40,052 nt of DNA from contig SIAQ01000040.1 in assembly GCA_009697105.1 (NCBI GenBank), positions 1 through 40,052 on the forward strand, given 5' to 3'. The notes beneath the pieces are model-generated. The model did no database searches, was not told the DNA's origin, and saw only the letters and a program-made list of their open reading frames with translations. This DNA is from Gemmataceae bacterium (GTDB taxonomy: Bacteria > Planctomycetota > Planctomycetia > Gemmatales > Gemmataceae). The position numbers and the translations under genes are program-made. Shown here in pieces: positions 1 to 6,055 of the stretch; within the stretch, counting starts at the first letter, position 1, and every line of letters starts with the position of its first letter.

Positions 1-111
1 TGCGATGGTTTCCCCGGCTGGATCACGCTCTGGCGTGGCTGGCAGAAGCTTCAGGCCATGGTCGACGGTTATCGCGCCGCCCAACGCAAAACGAAAAAAA
101 AGTTGTGGTAA
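1..111 (+). CDS. IS4-type transposase, C-terminal fragment (partial)
   Basis: The frame is open from the first base and ends in TAA at 109-111, giving 36 residues. It contains the string GWITLWRGWQKLQ followed by a basic tail ending KTKKKLW. A Trp-rich G-W-x-T-L-W-x-G-W-x-x-L motif close to the C-terminus is typical of IS4/Tn5-like transposases, where it belongs to the C-terminal dimerisation part. The catalytic DDE domain would lie to the left of the window, so it cannot be seen whether the element is intact. The terminal inverted repeat of the element, if present, should lie in 112-199, but I could not identify it without the other end. The family call rests on this short motif alone and is tentative. 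Confidence 0.55.
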   Translation, partial: CDGFPGWITLWRGWQKLQAMVDGYRAAQRKTKKKLW

Positions 112-154
112 AACTTAAGGCTGGCGCTCAGGCTCTGACCGGACAAATTCATTC

Positions 155-173
155 GCTCGAATTATGATCGAGC
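155..173 (-). terminator. Weak hairpin downstream of leuA
   Basis: GCTCGA (155-160) and TCGAGC (168-173) can form a 6-bp stem with a 7-base loop just beyond the leuA stop codon. There is no convincing U-run after it on the minus strand, so termination here is only a possibility. Confidence 0.2.
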
Positions 174-199
174 ACAAAGCCGCACGCGGAAAACTGGAA

Positions 200-1756
200 T
201 CATGCCGAGCCGAGCGGTCCGGTTTGTGGGTTCATTTTGATCTGTTCGCGCAGGATCGCGCGGTTAATTACTTGCAAGTACGCCAACGCGCTCGCATCAA
301 TGATGTCGGTGCTGACGGCTCGTCCGCGCAGCACACGGCCTTCATACTCGGCTTCGATCTGAGCCTCGCCTTGCGCGTCCTCATCTTCGGTAACGCTGGT
401 GACGGAAAACTTGCGCAGCTTCACATACACATTCGTGATGCGTTCTATGGTTTTGAAGACGGCGTCAATCGGCCCGTCACCCGTGCCAGCGTCGCGATGA
501 ATCACGCCCTCCTTGTGCCACAGAGCGACGGCGGCGCTTGGCACCGTGCCCGATCCGCCGTTGCAGGTCACGGCTTCGAGCGTCCAAACCACGGGGCCTG
601 AGTGCAGAACGAGTTCCGCCAGGGCTTCGATGTCGCCATCGTAGATCGTCTTCTTCCGGTCTGCCAAGGTCTTGAACTGGTCGAAGACCTTGTTCAGCTG
701 CTCGTTGTCCAGATGATACCCGAGATCGCGGATGCGCTGGCTGAGAGCATGGCGGCCGCTGTGTTTGCCGAGCACGAGTTCGGTGCGCGATACACCGACA
801 TCTTCGGGCAGCATGATTTCATAGGTCTGGGCGTGCTTGAGCATGCCGTCCTGGTGGATGCCAGCTTCGTGGGCGAAGGCGTTTTGGCCAACAATAGCTT
901 TGTTGCGTTGCACCTGCATGCCTGTAACGCGGGCAACGAGTCGGCTCGTCGGCATGAGTCGGCGCGTCTGGATACCGGAGTCAAGCTTAAAGAAATCATT
1001 GCGCGTGCGGATCGCCATGATGATCTCTTCGAGGGCGCAATTGCCCGCACGTTCGCCCAGGCCGTTGATCGTGCACTCGACTTGACGTGCGCCTTCCTTC
1101 AGCGCCGCCAAACTATTGGCGACGGCCAAGCCCAGATCGTTATGGCAGTGCACGCTGATGACTACATTGTCGATGCCGCGAACATTTTGTTTCAGATAGC
1201 GAATCGCAGCTGCATATTGCTCGGGCACGGCATAACCGACGGTGTCGGGAATGTTGACGGTTGTCGCGCCGGCTTCGATCACGCGTTCGACAACCTCGGC
1301 CAAGAACTCCAATTCGGTTCGTGCCGCGTCTTCGGGCGAGAACTCGACCTCGACACCGTAATTTTTTGCGCGGGCCACACCAGCGACGGCGCGACGCACG
1401 ATCTCTTCCTTGGCCATGCGCAGCTTGAATTCGCGATGAATCGCGCTCGTCGCCAGGAACACGTGGATGCGCGGCTTGCTGGCATTGCGCAATGCCTCCC
1501 AAGCGCGGTCGATGTCGTCGTTATTGCAACGTGCCAGGCCGCAGATGATCGGGCCTGTCACCTGCTCGGCGATCGTTTTCACCGCCTCGAAATCGCCAGG
1601 CGACGCAATCGGGAAGCCCGCCTCGATAACATCAACGCCCAATTCGGCAAGCGCGTGGGCGATCTCGATTTTTTCAGCAAGATTCATGCTACAACCAGGC
1701 GATTGCTCGCCGTCGCGCAGCGTGGTATCAAAAATTATCAGCCGATTGTCGCTCAT
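200..1756 (-). CDS. leuA: 2-isopropylmalate synthase
   Basis: LeuA condenses acetyl-CoA with 2-oxoisovalerate to 2-isopropylmalate, the first committed step of leucine synthesis, in the cytosol. The 518-residue protein has the usual length. The N-terminal TIM barrel carries the DTTLRDGEQSPG motif (residues 10-21, with catalytic Arg14 and metal ligand Asp15), the HCHND metal motif (His203 and His205) and GLGERAGNC (232-240, with Asn239). A linker region with QNAFAHEAGIHQDG (291-304) leads to the C-terminal LeuA dimer/regulatory domain (about 370-510), where leucine normally binds for feedback inhibition. The start ATG at 1754-1756 is followed at once by conserved sequence. The gene is preceded by a leader peptide and attenuator (1799-1950), so transcription is probably controlled by leucine as well. 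No other leu gene is next to it. Confidence 0.97.
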   Translation of the reverse strand: MSDNRLIIFDTTLRDGEQSPGCSMNLAEKIEIAHALAELGVDVIEAGFPIASPGDFEAVKTIAEQVTGPIICGLARCNNDDIDRAWEALRNASKPRIHVFLATSAIHREFKLRMAKEEIVRRAVAGVARAKNYGVEVEFSPEDAARTELEFLAEVVERVIEAGATTVNIPDTVGYAVPEQYAAAIRYLKQNVRGIDNVVISVHCHNDLGLAVANSLAALKEGARQVECTINGLGERAGNCALEEIIMAIRTRNDFFKLDSGIQTRRLMPTSRLVARVTGMQVQRNKAIVGQNAFAHEAGIHQDGMLKHAQTYEIMLPEDVGVSRTELVLGKHSGRHALSQRIRDLGYHLDNEQLNKVFDQFKTLADRKKTIYDGDIEALAELVLHSGPVVWTLEAVTCNGGSGTVPSAAVALWHKEGVIHRDAGTGDGPIDAVFKTIERITNVYVKLRKFSVTSVTEDEDAQGEAQIEAEYEGRVLRGRAVSTDIIDASALAYLQVINRAILREQIKMNPQTGPLGSA

Positions 1757-1798
1757 GGCGAGCAGGTCCTCGTAGCTTGGCGTGGGCGGCGCGGTCTA

Positions 1799-1830
1799 AT
1801 AAAAAACCCTGAGACGATTAGTCCCAGGGT
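1799..1830 (-). terminator. Attenuator terminator in the leuA leader
   Basis: Read on the minus strand, ACCCTGGGAC and GTCTCAGGGT form a 10-bp stem around a TAATC loop, followed by TTTTTATT. One pair is G-U in the minus-strand RNA but A-C on the plus strand, which fits function in the leuA direction. It lies between the leader peptide stop (1873) and the leuA start (1756), where an attenuator terminator is expected. The heptamer CTGGGAC in its 5' arm (plus coordinates 1821-1827) can instead pair with GTCCTAG at the end of the leader ORF (1873-1879). The two structures exclude each other. Function is inferred from this architecture. Confidence 0.85.
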
Positions 1831-1872
1831 CCGTTATTTCTCATTGGCAGAGTGTGAAATATGGCGGCGCAT

Positions 1873-1950
1873 CTAGGACAGATCCCCTCGAAGGAGAAGA
1901 AGAAGAAGAAGAAGAAGAAAACCCAACAGGATTTCTCGCTGGCGTTGCAT
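1873..1950 (-). CDS. leuL: leu operon leader peptide (25 residues)
   Basis: A small ORF starts with ATG at 1948-1950 and stops with TAG at 1873-1875. It begins MQRQREILLGF, continues with nine consecutive leucines (seven CTT, one CTC, one CTT; 1891-1917), and ends RGDLS. Twelve of its 25 residues are Leu. Leucine-rich leader peptides ahead of leuA are the sensor of ribosome-mediated attenuation in several bacterial phyla. A ribosome stalled in the Leu run would leave GTCCTAG free to form the antiterminator, giving leuA expression. A ribosome reaching the stop codon would cover it, allowing the terminator. There is no strong Shine-Dalgarno sequence: upstream is GAGAGAGTAGAG, about 17-28 bases before the ATG. 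The symbol is used by analogy with the enterobacterial leader. Confidence 0.85.
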   Translation of the reverse strand: MQRQREILLGFLLLLLLLLLRGDLS

Positions 1951-2096
1951 AGTCACCGGTGCAATCTCTACTCTCTCTTACCACTCTAGCGCATTGTCCG
2001 CAAAAAAGCAATGTTAGTTGTGCGAAAATGTCACCGCTTGCCGTTTATCGCTCACGTGGGATGGTCCGAGCGGGAAACGCACACTCCGCATCACGC

Positions 2097-2474
2097 TCAT
2101 TTGTTCGGGTACGGCTTCTGCCAAAAAATATCGCCGCTGATGTTCATCTCGGGTTTCGTTTCAACCTTGATGTCTCCAGTGACAGTACATTGGCACGCGA
2201 GCCGCATTTCGTCCTCCATGCCCAGCGACTCGAAGACGTGTAGCACGCCGAGACTCGCCTTCTCGATCAGGCCCGGCTTGCTGACGTTGTCTTTGCCTTC
2301 TTTCACGAGCACTCGGCACGTGGCGCACATGCCGTGGCCCATGCAGTTCAAGCCGGGATATTTGAATATCCAAGGATGCAGCTCGACCGCGGCCTTGCGA
2401 GCCTCATCGCGCAGGTTCGAGCCGGTGGGGACTTCGATTTCGACTTTTTCAGTGACGAAAGTGACTTTTGGCAT
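2097..2474 (-). CDS. 2Fe-2S ferredoxin
   Basis: This is a 125-residue soluble electron carrier of the plant/adrenodoxin-type 2Fe-2S fold. The start is set at ATG 2472-2474, which begins MPKVTFVTEKVEIEVP, because AAAGGA lies 8 bases upstream and the family's first beta strand starts there. The frame is open 14 codons further upstream. The cluster ligands are visible: Cys in GLNCMGHGMCATC (C-x5-C-x2-C) and a further Cys in the LACQC segment near residue 95. This spacing is normal for the fold, although MGHGM between the first two Cys differs from commoner ferredoxins. The C-terminus (FWQKPYPNK) is short and carries no extra domain. The gene stands alone, divergent from the phosphoesterase gene, and its redox partner cannot be named. 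Confidence 0.85.
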   Translation of the reverse strand: MPKVTFVTEKVEIEVPTGSNLRDEARKAAVELHPWIFKYPGLNCMGHGMCATCRVLVKEGKDNVSKPGLIEKASLGVLHVFESLGMEDEMRLACQCTVTGDIKVETKPEMNISGDIFWQKPYPNK

Positions 2475-2555
2475 CGCAGCCGTCCTTTGGATGTTGATCG
2501 CCTTGCCGTACAACATTGGTATAGGAATTTACCGATCGAATCTCAACGGGTTTCG

Positions 2556-2655
2556 TCGTTTAGCCGCTCGCCTTTGGCGGGCGTGAGCGCAGCGGTCAAA
2601 CCGAAGCGACAAAGCGGCGAGTCCGCCTTCGCCAAAGGCGAACGTCCAAACGGGT
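2556..2655. repeat. Degenerate palindromic repeat, TTTAGCCGC family
   Basis: The left part holds GTTTAGCCGCTCGCCTTTGG and the right part GCCAAAGGCGAACGTCCAAA in inverted orientation, with unrelated sequence between. It is an imperfect member of the family seen in perfect form at 3564-3627 and 24354-24390. It fills the gap between the divergent ferredoxin and phosphoesterase genes. Confidence 0.6.
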
Positions 2656-2662
2656 AGCCGCC

Positions 2663-3559
2663 ATGATTCGCCTCGCACATTTCAGCGATATTCACGTTAC
2701 CACTCCGACGCTGGAGTGGCAACGCGAAGACTGGTTCAACAAACGGCTGACATCCTGGTTCAACCTTTGCTTCTTGGGGCGGGGTAAGCGGTTCGCCCAT
2801 GCCGAGGAGGTCGCGAGCCGAATGATGGAGGAGATCGCCGTCCGTAATGTCGATCACCTGATTTTTTCCGGCGACGCGACGGCACTGGGATTTGAATCGG
2901 AAATCCGCCGCGCCGCCGAGCTTTTGCGCGTCGGCGAGCTGGCAATCCCAGGCCTGGCGATACCAGGCAACCATGACTATTGCACGGGAACCGCGGCGGC
3001 GTCGGGGCACTTCGAGCGCTATTTTTCCGCCTGGCAGACGGGGCGACGGATTGACGCGTACCATTACCCGTTCGCGCAGCCAGTCGGGCCGATTTGGCTG
3101 ATCGCCGTCAATGCCGCCACGGGCAATCGTTGGGCCTTGGACGCCAGCGGAACCATCGGCGCCGCGCAGCTGGAACGGCTCAAGCGATTGTTAAACGAAC
3201 TGGAACCGGGCCTCAAAATTCTCGTCCTGCATTTTCCAATCTGCCTCAAGGATGGCCAACGCGAATTAAACCTTCACGGCTTGCGTGATCTCGACGCGCT
3301 GCTCGCCATCGCAAATGCCGCCGGCGTCAACCTTTGGCTGCACGGGCATCGCCATGCACCGTATCATTTCCAGAAATCCGCGCATGCGAATTTCCCCGTC
3401 ATCTGCGCCGGCGCCGCCACGCAGACCGGCCTCTGGTCCTACGGCGAATACACCATCCACGACACGACGCTGACCGCGCTGCGCCGCGAATACGATCCAA
3501 CAACGAAACGATTCCGCGATGCCGAAACTTTTTCGCTCAGCCTTTCTCATAACCGATAG
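2663..3559 (+). CDS. Calcineurin-like metallophosphoesterase
   Basis: This 298-residue protein has every motif of the calcineurin-like phosphoesterase superfamily: D-x-H (Asp9, His11), GD (Gly70-Asp71), GNHD (102-105), His190 in the VLHFP segment, and HGHRH (227-231). These residues bind two metals that activate water for phosphoester hydrolysis. There is no signal peptide or membrane segment, so it is probably cytoplasmic. Length and motif spacing resemble the CpdA-like (cyclic nucleotide phosphodiesterase) and related branches, but the substrate cannot be read from sequence. The start ATG 2663 begins directly with the first beta strand (MIRLAHFSDIH). The Shine-Dalgarno sequence is weak. A perfect palindrome follows 4 bases after the stop codon. 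Confidence 0.88.
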   Translation: MIRLAHFSDIHVTTPTLEWQREDWFNKRLTSWFNLCFLGRGKRFAHAEEVASRMMEEIAVRNVDHLIFSGDATALGFESEIRRAAELLRVGELAIPGLAIPGNHDYCTGTAAASGHFERYFSAWQTGRRIDAYHYPFAQPVGPIWLIAVNAATGNRWALDASGTIGAAQLERLKRLLNELEPGLKILVLHFPICLKDGQRELNLHGLRDLDALLAIANAAGVNLWLHGHRHAPYHFQKSAHANFPVICAGAATQTGLWSYGEYTIHDTTLTALRREYDPTTKRFRDAETFSLSLSHNR

Positions 3560-3563
3560 GCCC

Positions 3564-3627
3564 TTGTTTAGCCGCGACGCGGAGCGAGTTCGCCGTCCGC
3601 GGTCCGCTCCGCGTCGCGGCTAAACAA
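3564..3627. repeat. Perfect 23-bp-arm palindrome, TTTAGCCGC family
   Basis: The left arm at 3564-3586 begins TTGTTTAGCCGCGACGC, and the right arm at 3605-3627 is its exact reverse complement. The 18-base loop is GC-rich. It sits immediately after the phosphoesterase stop and could act as a terminator, but there is no U-run longer than the repeat's own ends. Confidence 0.85.
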
Positions 3628-3703
3628 AACTCGTTGAACCCGCCGTACCTTGCCGTATAAAAATTGCACCTATCGCCCGTCACGCTTACTCGGAGCTTCA
3701 CTA

Positions 3704-4117
3704 ATGCGTCGTACATGGTTCGTCGGTTTGGTCTGTTTCGTTCTCGGTCTCGGCATCGCCGGTTGGCAGATGAGTGGCAACACGCAAGCGCAGCCCAAGG
3801 CGGGGCCGATGCTCTCGCACGATGTCTATTTCTCGCTCAAGGACAACTCGCCGGCCGCGAAGAAAACGCTCATTGACGCCTGCCAGAAATATTTGACGGG
3901 CCACGAAGGCGAAGTCTTCTTCAGTGCCGGCGAACTCTGTGGCGAACTCAAACGCGAAGTCAACGACATCGGCTTCGACATCGCCCTCCACATCGTCTTC
4001 AAGGACATGGCCGCCCACGACAAGTACCAGATCGCCAAACGGCACGATCAGTTCATCGCCGAGAACAAAGCCAACTGGACGAGGGTCCGGGTGTTTGATT
4101 CGTATATTCAGAAATAA
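3704..4117 (+). CDS. Secreted Dabb (stress-responsive A/B barrel) domain protein
   Basis: This 137-residue protein has an N-terminal signal peptide: MRRTWFVGLVCFVLGLGIAG, then a polar stretch with NTQAQ as a likely cleavage region. The rest matches a Dabb-type dimeric alpha/beta barrel: HDVYFSLKDNS as first strand, a helix with KKTLIDACQKYL, and the closing features DIALHIVFKDMAAHDKYQ and HDQFIAENK. Dabb proteins are small homodimers, and no general biochemical role is established. The ATG at 3704 is preferred over one 18 codons upstream because the signal peptide starts there and CGGAGC lies about 10 bases upstream. The export signal suggests action in the periplasm. It stands alone. Confidence 0.8.
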   Translation: MRRTWFVGLVCFVLGLGIAGWQMSGNTQAQPKAGPMLSHDVYFSLKDNSPAAKKTLIDACQKYLTGHEGEVFFSAGELCGELKREVNDIGFDIALHIVFKDMAAHDKYQIAKRHDQFIAENKANWTRVRVFDSYIQK

Positions 4118-4132
4118 ATCGCGATGTTTACG

Positions 4133-4182
4133 TTTAGCGCTCGCGCCATCCCTCGTAAAAAAATGGCCCAGCGAGCGCTAAA
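4133..4182. repeat. Palindrome with 12-bp arms between convergent genes
   Basis: TTTAGCGCTCGC (4133-4144) and GCGAGCGCTAAA (4171-4182) are exact inverted copies. The element lies between the convergent Dabb gene and the unknown gene at 4205-4585, so it may terminate transcription from both sides. It belongs loosely to the TTTAGC-type palindromes. Confidence 0.7.
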
Positions 4183-4204
4183 TATAAGCCCGATTATTTT
4201 GTTG

Positions 4205-4585
4205 TCATGAGAACTTCGTCGGCAGACCTGCACCCGCAGCAAAACCGTCGGCGGTTTTTGTCTCGCCGTCAACAATGACGCTGGCGCCGGTGACACGCGC
4301 CAACATCAACGTCAATGTGTTCCACGATTGGCGCATGGCGTCGTCAGCGTTGCCCCAGACGACGACGCTGATGCCGTCGTTATCGCGCCGCAGCGTGATC
4401 ATGCCCCCGGAGGTGCTGATGCGCAGCTCTTTCCAATCGTGGGGCGGCGTCTCATCGGGAAACGCGAGCTCGCCGTCGATCATGCGAAGCTGCAGCGGGA
4501 ACGCCCATGCGTTGCAATAGGCCGTGAGTTCGGTCCAAATGATGGCGGTGTTCCGTGCTATGCTGACTTTGTGTTCCATGCCCAT
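4205..4585 (-). CDS. Conserved-looking protein of unknown function
   Basis: I do not recognise this 126-residue protein. It has no signal peptide or membrane segment. The middle contains short beta-rich strings such as ELRISTSGGMITLRRDNDG and ISVVVWGNADDAMRQS, suggesting a small alpha/beta domain. The start ATG at 4583-4585 is well supported: AAGGAGG lies 6 bases upstream, one of the best ribosome binding sites in the window, so the gene is very likely real. It is divergent from the Tat-exported protein at 4652 with 66 bases between the starts, so the two may share a control region. The C-terminus (GLPTKFS) is unremarkable. Confidence 0.7.
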   Translation of the reverse strand: MGMEHKVSIARNTAIIWTELTAYCNAWAFPLQLRMIDGELAFPDETPPHDWKELRISTSGGMITLRRDNDGISVVVWGNADDAMRQSWNTLTLMLARVTGASVIVDGETKTADGFAAGAGLPTKFS

Positions 4586-4651
4586 GTCGAATCCTCCTTG
4601 TCGCGATATGGTACAGAGATAGCGAATTCAACCGGACGTGGGGAGAACACG

Positions 4652-6055
4652 ATGCGAAATACACGACGCCGATTTCTGCAGACCAGCACTGTGGCCACTA
4701 CGGGCTATTTTGTCGCGCCTGCGCTCGGGCAAGAGACTCCCACCTGGCCACCCGTGCTGCGCGGTGCCAAGAACGGCACAGTGACACTGCGTTCGGACCG
4801 CTTTCTCGACGTGCCCGACACCGTCGCGAAATCACGCCAGGTTGCTGGCGCCGCGGAGTTCACCGTCGCCAGAACCGCGCCGACCGTCGATCTCGCCTTC
4901 CACAATAACCTCGGCCCGAACGCGATCGGCCGACGCTTGTGGTCGTCGTGGGGCGACATTGGTCTCGCCTCCGATGGCAAGGTCTACAGCGGCATCGGCG
5001 ATCATGCCGACGACGCCGGCGGCGATGCGCGGTGCTTTCTTTACGTCTGGAACCCAGCCACGAAGACGCTCGAACAGATCGTGGACATGAACCGCGTCAT
5101 CCCGCCGCAAGCCGGGCAGCCGGCCTGGTCGAAGGTGCACGCGAAAATCGACGAAGCCGCCGACGGCAAGATCATCTTCTCCTGCACGCTCAACGACGGC
5201 AACCGCGCCGCCAACGCCAACTTCCGCTGGACGAAACAATTACCCGGCGGGCAAATCCACCAATACGATCCGCAGAAACGCCAAACCACCGTGCTCGCCA
5301 CGCTGCCGAACGCGCCGCGTTGCACGGCGACTTCGCTTTTCGACCGCCAACGCAATACCTGGTGGGCGAATCTCGAAGTCGGGCCGAATGCGATCTACGG
5401 GCTTGACCTGCAAACGCGCAAGCCGGTCTTTCAGTCCGAGAATGGCGCCGTCGTGTTCAACCGCGCCATTGCTCTCGCTCGCAACGGCGACATCTTTTTC
5501 AACGGTGCCATGGGCAGCCTTTGGCGCTACGACCGCACCGCCAACCGCGTCGGGCAGACGAAATCGAATTTCGGCAAATCGCCCGGCATGCGTTCATCCA
5601 CTCGCGAATCGCGCGATGGCCATCTCTTCGGCACCGCCCACCAAGTCGGCAACCTCTGGCGCTATCACGTTGCCCGCGACACAATGACGACTCTCGGTCC
5701 CGCCTGGCTCACCGGCGACTACATCACCGTCACCGAACTGTCGCCCGACGAACGCTTCCTCTATTATCTCCCTGGCGCCCACGGCCAGGCCTCGCGCAGC
5801 GGCACGCCCGTCATCCAGTACGACATCGCCAAGGGCCAACGCAAAGTCATCGCGTTCCTGGCCCGTGCCTTCGAGCAAGCCCACGACTACGTCCCCGGCG
5901 GCACCTACGGCGTCAAAATCAGCGCCGACGGCAGCACGCTCTACGTCAACTTCAACGGCCATCCAGCCAAAAACCTTCCCAAACACCTCCGCGCCAACGG
6001 CTTCGGCCTATGTGCTTTCGCGGCGATTCAGATACCGCGCGCTGAACGTCAGTAG
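4652..6055 (+). CDS. Tat-exported beta-propeller-like protein of unknown function
   Basis: This 467-residue protein begins MRNTRRRFLQTSTVATTGYF and continues to APALGQE. The RRRFLQ motif with a following hydrophobic stretch is a twin-arginine signal, so the protein should be exported folded. The mature part has repeated strand-rich segments with W and G (IGDHADDAGGDARCFLYVW, GQIHQYDPQKRQTTVLATLP, IYGLDLQTRKPVF, LWRYDRTANRV, LWRYHVARDTMTTLGP, VIQYDIAKGQRKVIAFL). Short repeated blades of the form x-YD-x are typical of WD40-, SMP-30- or YVTN-like propellers, but I cannot choose among them or name a substrate. The frame extends 108 codons further upstream, overlapping the opposite gene. ATG 4652 is chosen because GGGGAGA lies just upstream and the Tat signal begins there. 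Confidence 0.75.
   Translation: MRNTRRRFLQTSTVATTGYFVAPALGQETPTWPPVLRGAKNGTVTLRSDRFLDVPDTVAKSRQVAGAAEFTVARTAPTVDLAFHNNLGPNAIGRRLWSSWGDIGLASDGKVYSGIGDHADDAGGDARCFLYVWNPATKTLEQIVDMNRVIPPQAGQPAWSKVHAKIDEAADGKIIFSCTLNDGNRAANANFRWTKQLPGGQIHQYDPQKRQTTVLATLPNAPRCTATSLFDRQRNTWWANLEVGPNAIYGLDLQTRKPVFQSENGAVVFNRAIALARNGDIFFNGAMGSLWRYDRTANRVGQTKSNFGKSPGMRSSTRESRDGHLFGTAHQVGNLWRYHVARDTMTTLGPAWLTGDYITVTELSPDERFLYYLPGAHGQASRSGTPVIQYDIAKGQRKVIAFLARAFEQAHDYVPGGTYGVKISADGSTLYVNFNGHPAKNLPKHLRANGFGLCAFAAIQIPRAERQ

Follow-up and report, generated by a model that had tools for sequence, protein, structure and literature searches.

The ribosome-mediated attenuator of the Escherichia coli leu operon (leuL) corresponds to the Rfam family Leu_leader (RF00512). 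Attenuators in early planctomycete genomes may, reportedly, be listed in the broad surveys by Merino and Yanofsky in 2005 and by Lopatovskaya in 2010. In actinobacteria, the LEU element has a Leu-rich leader ORF before leuA, as does the locus studied here, according to the passages on this element in Seliverstov et al. (2005, PMC1262725). A similar arrangement is given for the ilv-leu operon of Staphylococcus aureus in the part of PMC5794164 that deals with it: a terminator lies 52 nt past the stop codon of a 26-amino-acid Ile/Leu leader, and Leu-dependent attenuation was proposed. For planctomycetes, leader genes were counted in general terms in PMC4833913, where the portion concerned names neither leucine nor leuA, and no planctomycete leucine attenuator was described in the titles and abstract openings of the matches listed from the literature on planctomycetes or Gemmata.

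The sequence analyzed here, referred to as the window, is one complete contig of 40,052 nucleotides from a genome of 5.4 Mb in 187 contigs. A planctomycete host had been suggested in the initial annotation, which was made from the DNA letters only, and agrees with the LeuA protein, which shares 84% identity with its counterpart in 'Gemmataceae bacterium isolate Baikal-deep-G160'. The closest relative, with a LeuA 98% identical to that of the window, is labelled 'Singulisphaera sp. GP187 isolate MaH-04nov19-250', and Baikal-deep-G160 is of the same genus; the labels Singulisphaera and Gemmataceae of these two relatives refer to different planctomycete families. The window LeuA scored 775.8 bits against NF002086 (cut-off 532) and 720.1 bits against TIGR00973 (cut-off 598.7). 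All parts of the layout described at the outset, a 25-codon ORF with nine successive Leu codons and then a terminator ahead of leuA, were found (Table 1). Eight of the nine run codons had been counted as CTT or CTC; in fact all nine are, eight being CTT and one CTC. The idea that these codons would favor stalling suits CTT, which is uncommon (11.8% of the Leu codons in 22 long ORFs of the window), but not CTC, which is not (31.8%). Upstream of the leader promoter lies a ferredoxin-like 2Fe-2S gene (2097-2516, minus strand) that scored far under the fdx_isc cut-off.

Table 1. Predicted elements of the leuA leader in the window.
Feature	Position	Strand	Basis
Predicted promoter, -35 element TTGCTT	2006..2011	-	Located by sequence pattern
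Predicted promoter, -10 element TAGAGT, spacer 17 nt	1983..1988	-	Sigma70-like pattern; transcription start inferred
Predicted leader peptide ORF, ATG at 1950, 25 codons MQRQREILLGFLLLLLLLLLRGDLS, then TAG	1873..1950	-	ORF list
Control region, nine Leu codons in a row (CTT x7, CTC, CTT)	1891..1917	-	Sequence
Antiterminator strand GTCCTAG, includes the leader stop codon	1873..1879	-	Pairs with 1821-1827
Terminator 5' arm ACCCTGGGAC, used by the antiterminator and terminator helices alike	1821..1830	-	Fold, covariation
Terminator 3' arm GTCTCAGGGT	1806..1815	-	Fold, shuffles
U tract that closes the intrinsic terminator; the attenuated transcript is predicted to end here	1798..1805	-	Sequence and fold
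leuA, 2-isopropylmalate synthase, 518 aa, ATG at 1756, proposed regulated gene	200..1756	-	Profile matches

The terminator of the window is made up of ACCCTGGGAC/taatc/GTCTCAGGGT (1830-1806) and a U tract reaching to 1798. Its hairpin has a predicted energy of -16.5 kcal/mol (z -5.5), which none of 200 shuffles equaled, and is separated from leuA by 49 nt. The end of the ORF with its stop codon, GTCCTAG (1879-1873), is complementary to CTGGGAC in the terminator 5' arm (1827-1821), as had been claimed, over 7 base pairs, one of them G-U, and the last codon of the CTT run starts 14 nt ahead of it. Folded alone, the antiterminator hairpin reached -15.8 kcal/mol (z -2.3; 5 of 200 shuffles were as good), nearly the same energy as that of the terminator. 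Scored as a duplex in the window alone, the pairing was within chance (z -1.0 against shuffles), so that it becomes convincing through comparison with relatives.

On these data and those from relatives given below, we put at about 0.87 the probability that the region is a ribosome-mediated transcription attenuator of leuA, which would use the Leu-rich ORF, the terminator and the strand across the stop codon. When charged tRNA-Leu is ample, the leading ribosome would reach the stop codon and cover GTCCTAG; the 5' arm of the terminator would then pair with the 3' arm, and transcription would end near 1798. When Leu-tRNA is scarce, the ribosome would stall within the CTT run and leave GTCCTAG free; this strand would capture the 5' arm while the 3' arm is still unmade, and RNA polymerase would continue into leuA. 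The elements themselves, their recurrence, their covariation and the excess of UAG are observations; stalling, occlusion of the strand, the folding order and the leucine response are deduced from them. A short ORF rich in the cognate codon, an intrinsic terminator before the gene and a predicted antiterminator that would exclude this terminator by using its 5' arm are the parts of such an attenuator that can be read from the sequence. Judged by geometry, the control codons are so placed that a stalled ribosome should free, and a terminating ribosome should cover, the antiterminator strand.

To see the locus in its relatives, leuA was located in 50 of the 59 genomes of a relatives search and in 249 of the 257 of a class search. 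The upstream regions taken from these numbered 158: those of 48 of the 50 matched relatives' genomes (the other two had no leuA start), 12 loci of the class search and 98 further listed places, a sample drawn from the more similar of the 249 matched class genomes. A region was counted when it had a terminator and, ahead of this, an ORF in which 14 codons near the stop included 5 or more Leu, the leader being chosen by a score favoring Leu, ATG and strong terminators; dinucleotide shuffles, chosen likewise, served as the control. A Leu-rich leader ORF with a terminator was found in 109 of the 158 regions and in 2 of 790 shuffles, the median distance from stop codon to terminator being 35 nt. 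A sigma70-like pattern lay no more than 110 nt before the leader start at 91 of the 109 class loci, compared to 89 of 2180 shuffles. These counts bear on a trivial explanation, in which the hairpin is an ordinary terminator, perhaps serving the ferredoxin-like gene upstream, and chance made a Leu-rich ORF out of the CTT repeat. Intrinsic terminators alone are indeed common, and the long CTT run of the window is absent from its closest relative. However, relatives keep leader and terminator together far beyond the shuffled level and with a promoter-like pattern just ahead of the leader, and the layout occurred at none of the 29 ilvB loci parsed (scored for Leu only; one of 30 was too short), which makes a chance origin hardly credible.

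The leader with terminator was present in 17 of the 19 sampled families: f1 (41/65), f2 (3/4), f3 (17/29), f4 (16/17), f5 (2/2), f6 (7/8), f8 (5/7), f9 (1/2), f11 (5/5), f14 (4/4), f16 (2/2) and, with 1/1 each, f7, f10, f13, f17, f18 and f19. In families f15 (0/6) and f12 (0/1) the parser found no Leu-rich leader with a terminator, and in f15 this looks like a real absence of the leader. The total of 109 is probably a lower bound, since 17 of the 49 regions missed carry an ORF with a Leu score of at least 5 that was left unjoined to a terminator; in several of these the U tract is weak. When a covariance model built on 19 leaders of Gemmatales was run on 59 genomes, it gave 16 matches with E < 1e-6, all of them ahead of leuA; 14 are training sequences, and of the other two, one is in G020 and one in G003, where it lies at a contig end. 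As the layout recurs over much of the class, it is likely to be a switch by which a shortage of leucine at the ribosome would turn on leucine synthesis.

A few loci of the survey depart from the common form. At L006 (G001:C111), of the same genus, the leader TAG has become TGG, and the ORF, its stop lost, continues past the antiterminator. In family f1, mostly in genus g16, some leaders are poorer in Leu (score 3-6) and have, ahead of the stop, a conserved coding tail like RGRSSSR (L153-L155, L158, L160, L238-L240); the antiterminator of these leaders may lie in the coding tail. At L377 (G018:C255) a distant paralogue of leuA (32% identity) has a terminator-like CCCTGGAGC...GCTCCAGGG directly upstream, and no Leu-rich ORF was found there.

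Outside the class, a phylum sample supplied 23 leuA loci, 3 of which (L283, L288 and L303) reached a Leu score of at least 5, and the element is thus not shown to be phylum-wide. Among the leuA loci of a named set, four from Phycisphaeraceae (L061, L063, L064 and L067) pass the parser, and the first three have an antiterminator across the stop codon, indicating that this overlap also occurs beyond the class of the window. The leaders of L061 and L064 end in GCCGGATAGGG, which is complementary to the terminator arm CCCTGTCCGGC.

Among the 109 leaders the stop codon is UAG in 79, compared to 36 of 180 long ORFs of the same loci (Fisher p 8e-19), and in 66 of the 79 leaders whose antiterminator overlaps the stop. 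The Leu codons of the leaders are enriched for CTA (16.0% versus 3.2%) and CTT (29.5% versus 15.0%). All 109 have at least 3 Leu codons starting at least 12 nt before the antiterminator, a count taken without a shuffle control. When the sequence from the ORF start to the terminator was searched, the best antiterminator strand overlapped the stop codon in 78 of 109 leaders, compared to 24% of shuffles, and touched the footprint of a ribosome at the stop, assumed to be about 12 nt, in 102, compared to 53% of shuffles. A narrower search, beginning 33 nt upstream of the last base of the stop codon and so favoring strands close to the stop, gave 79 and 102 of 109, respectively. The antiterminator duplex was in the best 5% relative to shuffles in 64 of 109 leaders with the narrower search, 28 of these beating all 60 shuffles, and in 69 of 109 with the wider one.

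The two partners of this duplex are matched to each other within loci. At the 70 loci with a strand spanning the whole stop codon, strands scored 17.6 with their own arms and 13.4 with permuted ones (sd 0.44; highest of 200 permutations 14.6), and in several antiterminator columns a T-A pair is swapped for C-G. The mean duplex energy was -17.3 kcal/mol with own arms, -13.6 with arms from any permutation and -15.9 with arms permuted within families (sd 0.2; lowest of 2000 permutations -16.6). In 19 aligned Gemmatales sequences 91.2% of antiterminator and 96.3% of terminator pairs are standard, with 3 and 4 pairs, respectively, changed on both sides; when the partner was shifted by one column, standard pairs fell to 53-62%. 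Since both helices need the one 5' arm, the antiterminator and terminator are mutually exclusive. At 25 of the 70 loci the A of the stop codon faces a C, an A-C mismatch that would be expected if the stop codon cannot change. Recurrence, arm-swap controls and paired substitutions in relatives thus lend support to the attenuation logic put forward in the initial annotation. Of the features that it expected close relatives to keep, the Leu-rich ORF, the terminator and the pairing with compensatory changes are conserved, but the run of nine Leu is not.

Folds of the nascent RNA were computed up to the point just before the 3' arm is made. With a ribosome on the middle Leu codon, 108 of 109 leaders had half or more of the 5' arm sequestered; with a ribosome at the stop codon, this was so in 25 of 109. 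The arm is GC-rich, and half sequestration was also reached in 68% of shuffled leaders (1485/2180), so that this test is supportive and not decisive; a cut at 70% sequestration separates better (88/109 real compared to 29% shuffled). In equilibrium folds, just 21 of 109 stalled leaders keep half of the arm sequestered, which means that the switch would have to be kinetic and decided during transcription. When no ribosome was present, the nascent arm was half sequestered before the 3' arm in 79 of 109 leaders, and untranslated leaders are therefore not clearly predicted to terminate.

For this last state a classical three-segment leu attenuator has a further part: in an untranslated leader, the antiterminator strand is held in a 1:2 hairpin by a leader segment upstream of it. 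Such a hairpin of good strength is formed by one leader, L186 (z -4.0), and a similar fold of E. coli leuL pairs the antiterminator strand upstream at 83%. Over the whole set, however, pairing between upstream and antiterminator segments at p <= 0.05 was found in 11 of 109 leaders with 5.5 expected, the median z was -0.4 and that of the window 0.5, and a looser test gave 102/109 for real compared to 876/1090 for shuffled leaders. We consider it unlikely that the leaders are built in this way, and a protector (1:2) hairpin, searched for as a general part of the 109 leaders, was not clearly above chance. In the folds of L004, L008, L011 and L030 a small hairpin joins the last Leu codons to a purine-rich stretch before the antiterminator; none of the four was clearly better than shuffles (z 0.5, 0.2, -1.6 and -1.1).

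A leader could also sense leucine or its tRNA directly, as a T-box or riboswitch, or bind a protein in the manner of the actinobacterial LEU element, with the ORF left untranslated. Precedents exist in the LEU element at leuA itself (in the part of PMC1262725 describing it) and in the tRNA-Leu T-box of the Bacillus subtilis ilv-leu operon (as mentioned in a portion of PMC5794164). Against this, the best Rfam hit in positions 1-6000 of the window had E 2.2, within chance and under the gathering scores, and no Rfam family reached its gathering score in 14 related loci. The Leu_leader and T-box covariance models in particular gave no match at E <= 5 in positions 1-6000 of the window and none at gathering score in the 14 loci. 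In addition, the median of 35 nt between stop codon and terminator leaves little room for an aptamer, and the ORF is conserved in both Leu content and codon bias, making an RNA or protein sensor that bypasses translation a very remote prospect.

Besides ilvB, two more biosynthetic genes were parsed for leaders of this kind. None of 30 trpE loci had a leader with two or more Trp codons, and among 22 hisG loci (8 of 30 were too short) there was one weak case with two His and no run. The leuA covariance model also matched terminators before DAHP synthase genes (TIGR01361). A leader with at least 5 Phe/Tyr/Trp in 14 codons and a terminator was found in 16 of 51 DAHP synthase stretches and in 0 of 255 shuffles; the 16 correspond to 13 distinct class loci, three having been read twice, and among twenty of the stretches some had been picked because of leuA-model matches. 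One of the loci is on another contig of the window's own genome (L418, G000:C81:14780-15500, minus strand), where the DAHP synthase gene has the Phe/Tyr/Trp-rich leader EFGYRITYWHYYP and a terminator. The leader ends in EFGYRITYWHYYPKLTVSGAL, the complementary strand is GGTTTCAGGAGCGTTG and the duplex has z -4.0; by its sequence, L418 is likely to be an aromatic amino-acid attenuator. When the 13 aromatic leaders were tested, 6 had a duplex z of -2.6 or lower and the strand ended before the stop codon in 11. The aromatic type thus has the sensor principle in common with the leuA leaders, but overlap with the stop codon is rare in it.

The nine-Leu run of the window requires an explanation of its own. 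In the relative with the 98% identical LeuA the run is of four Leu, and the aligned leader is 15 nt (five CTT) shorter than that of the window; in the other 108 leaders the longest runs are of 1-6 Leu. The run therefore likely arose by in-frame microsatellite expansion in the lineage of the window. We lean slightly towards regarding its length, and only its length, as the outcome of neutral CTT slippage (or of the assembly of the metagenome-derived genome) with no tuning of the switch, as the missing five CTT in so close a relative and the maximum of six elsewhere would suggest. Against pure neutrality stands the fact that the change in length is in frame and leaves the stop codon and antiterminator undisturbed.

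A bolder view can be put forward tentatively, with more doubt than confidence. UAG may be kept for its pairing inside the antiterminator, and the arrival of the ribosome at the stop codon would then decide termination; the two-state design free of a protector could be an old strategy of the phylum, reading leucine for leuA and Phe/Tyr/Trp, in a related leader, for DAHP synthase; and an in-frame CTT microsatellite could act as an evolvable dial of sensitivity. The attenuator proposed for leuA would supply a concrete model, shared by most of the families sampled in the class, for the control of amino acids in planctomycetes. The recurrent UAG in the antiterminator leads to a simple rule, that another stop codon should alter read-through via base pairing alone. 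Many natural variants, including the nine-Leu run beside a four-Leu relative, bear on how the number and choice of codons set the sensitivity.

In comparison with known systems, the leaders resemble E. coli leuL in having consecutive Leu codons in the leader ORF, an intrinsic terminator before leuA and a strand able to pair with the 5' arm of the terminator. They differ from it in the position of this strand. In E. coli K-12, a search from the start of leuL places the best strand within the ORF, from 35 to 27 nt ahead of the stop codon's last base, whereas with the same kind of search it overlaps the stop in 78 of 109 leaders here. Moreover, unlike the E. coli leuL type, the planctomycete leaders had no general 1:2 hairpin that could be detected, and there was no Rfam match in positions 1-6000 of the window or, at gathering score, in the 14 related loci. 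In an alphaproteobacterial locus (L084) the antiterminator strand reaches the first base of the stop codon, so that overlap with the stop may not be confined to planctomycetes. In the actinobacterial LEU element, as described in the relevant part of PMC1262725, where a terminator is unmentioned, the Leu run pairs with the Shine-Dalgarno box of leuA in a pseudoknot-like structure, whereas here there is a terminator with a U tract and a competing helix. The S. aureus ilv-leu leader also differs, since its antiterminator is predicted to pair with the poly-U tail and leave the terminator stem intact, and its first gene is ilvD (passages on this operon in PMC5794164). The kind of regulation proposed is thus a known one, classical ribosome-mediated attenuation, in a host group and with a systematic use of the stop codon that were not found described in the literature searched. 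What distinguishes this variant from classical attenuation is the stop codon lying inside the predicted antiterminator.
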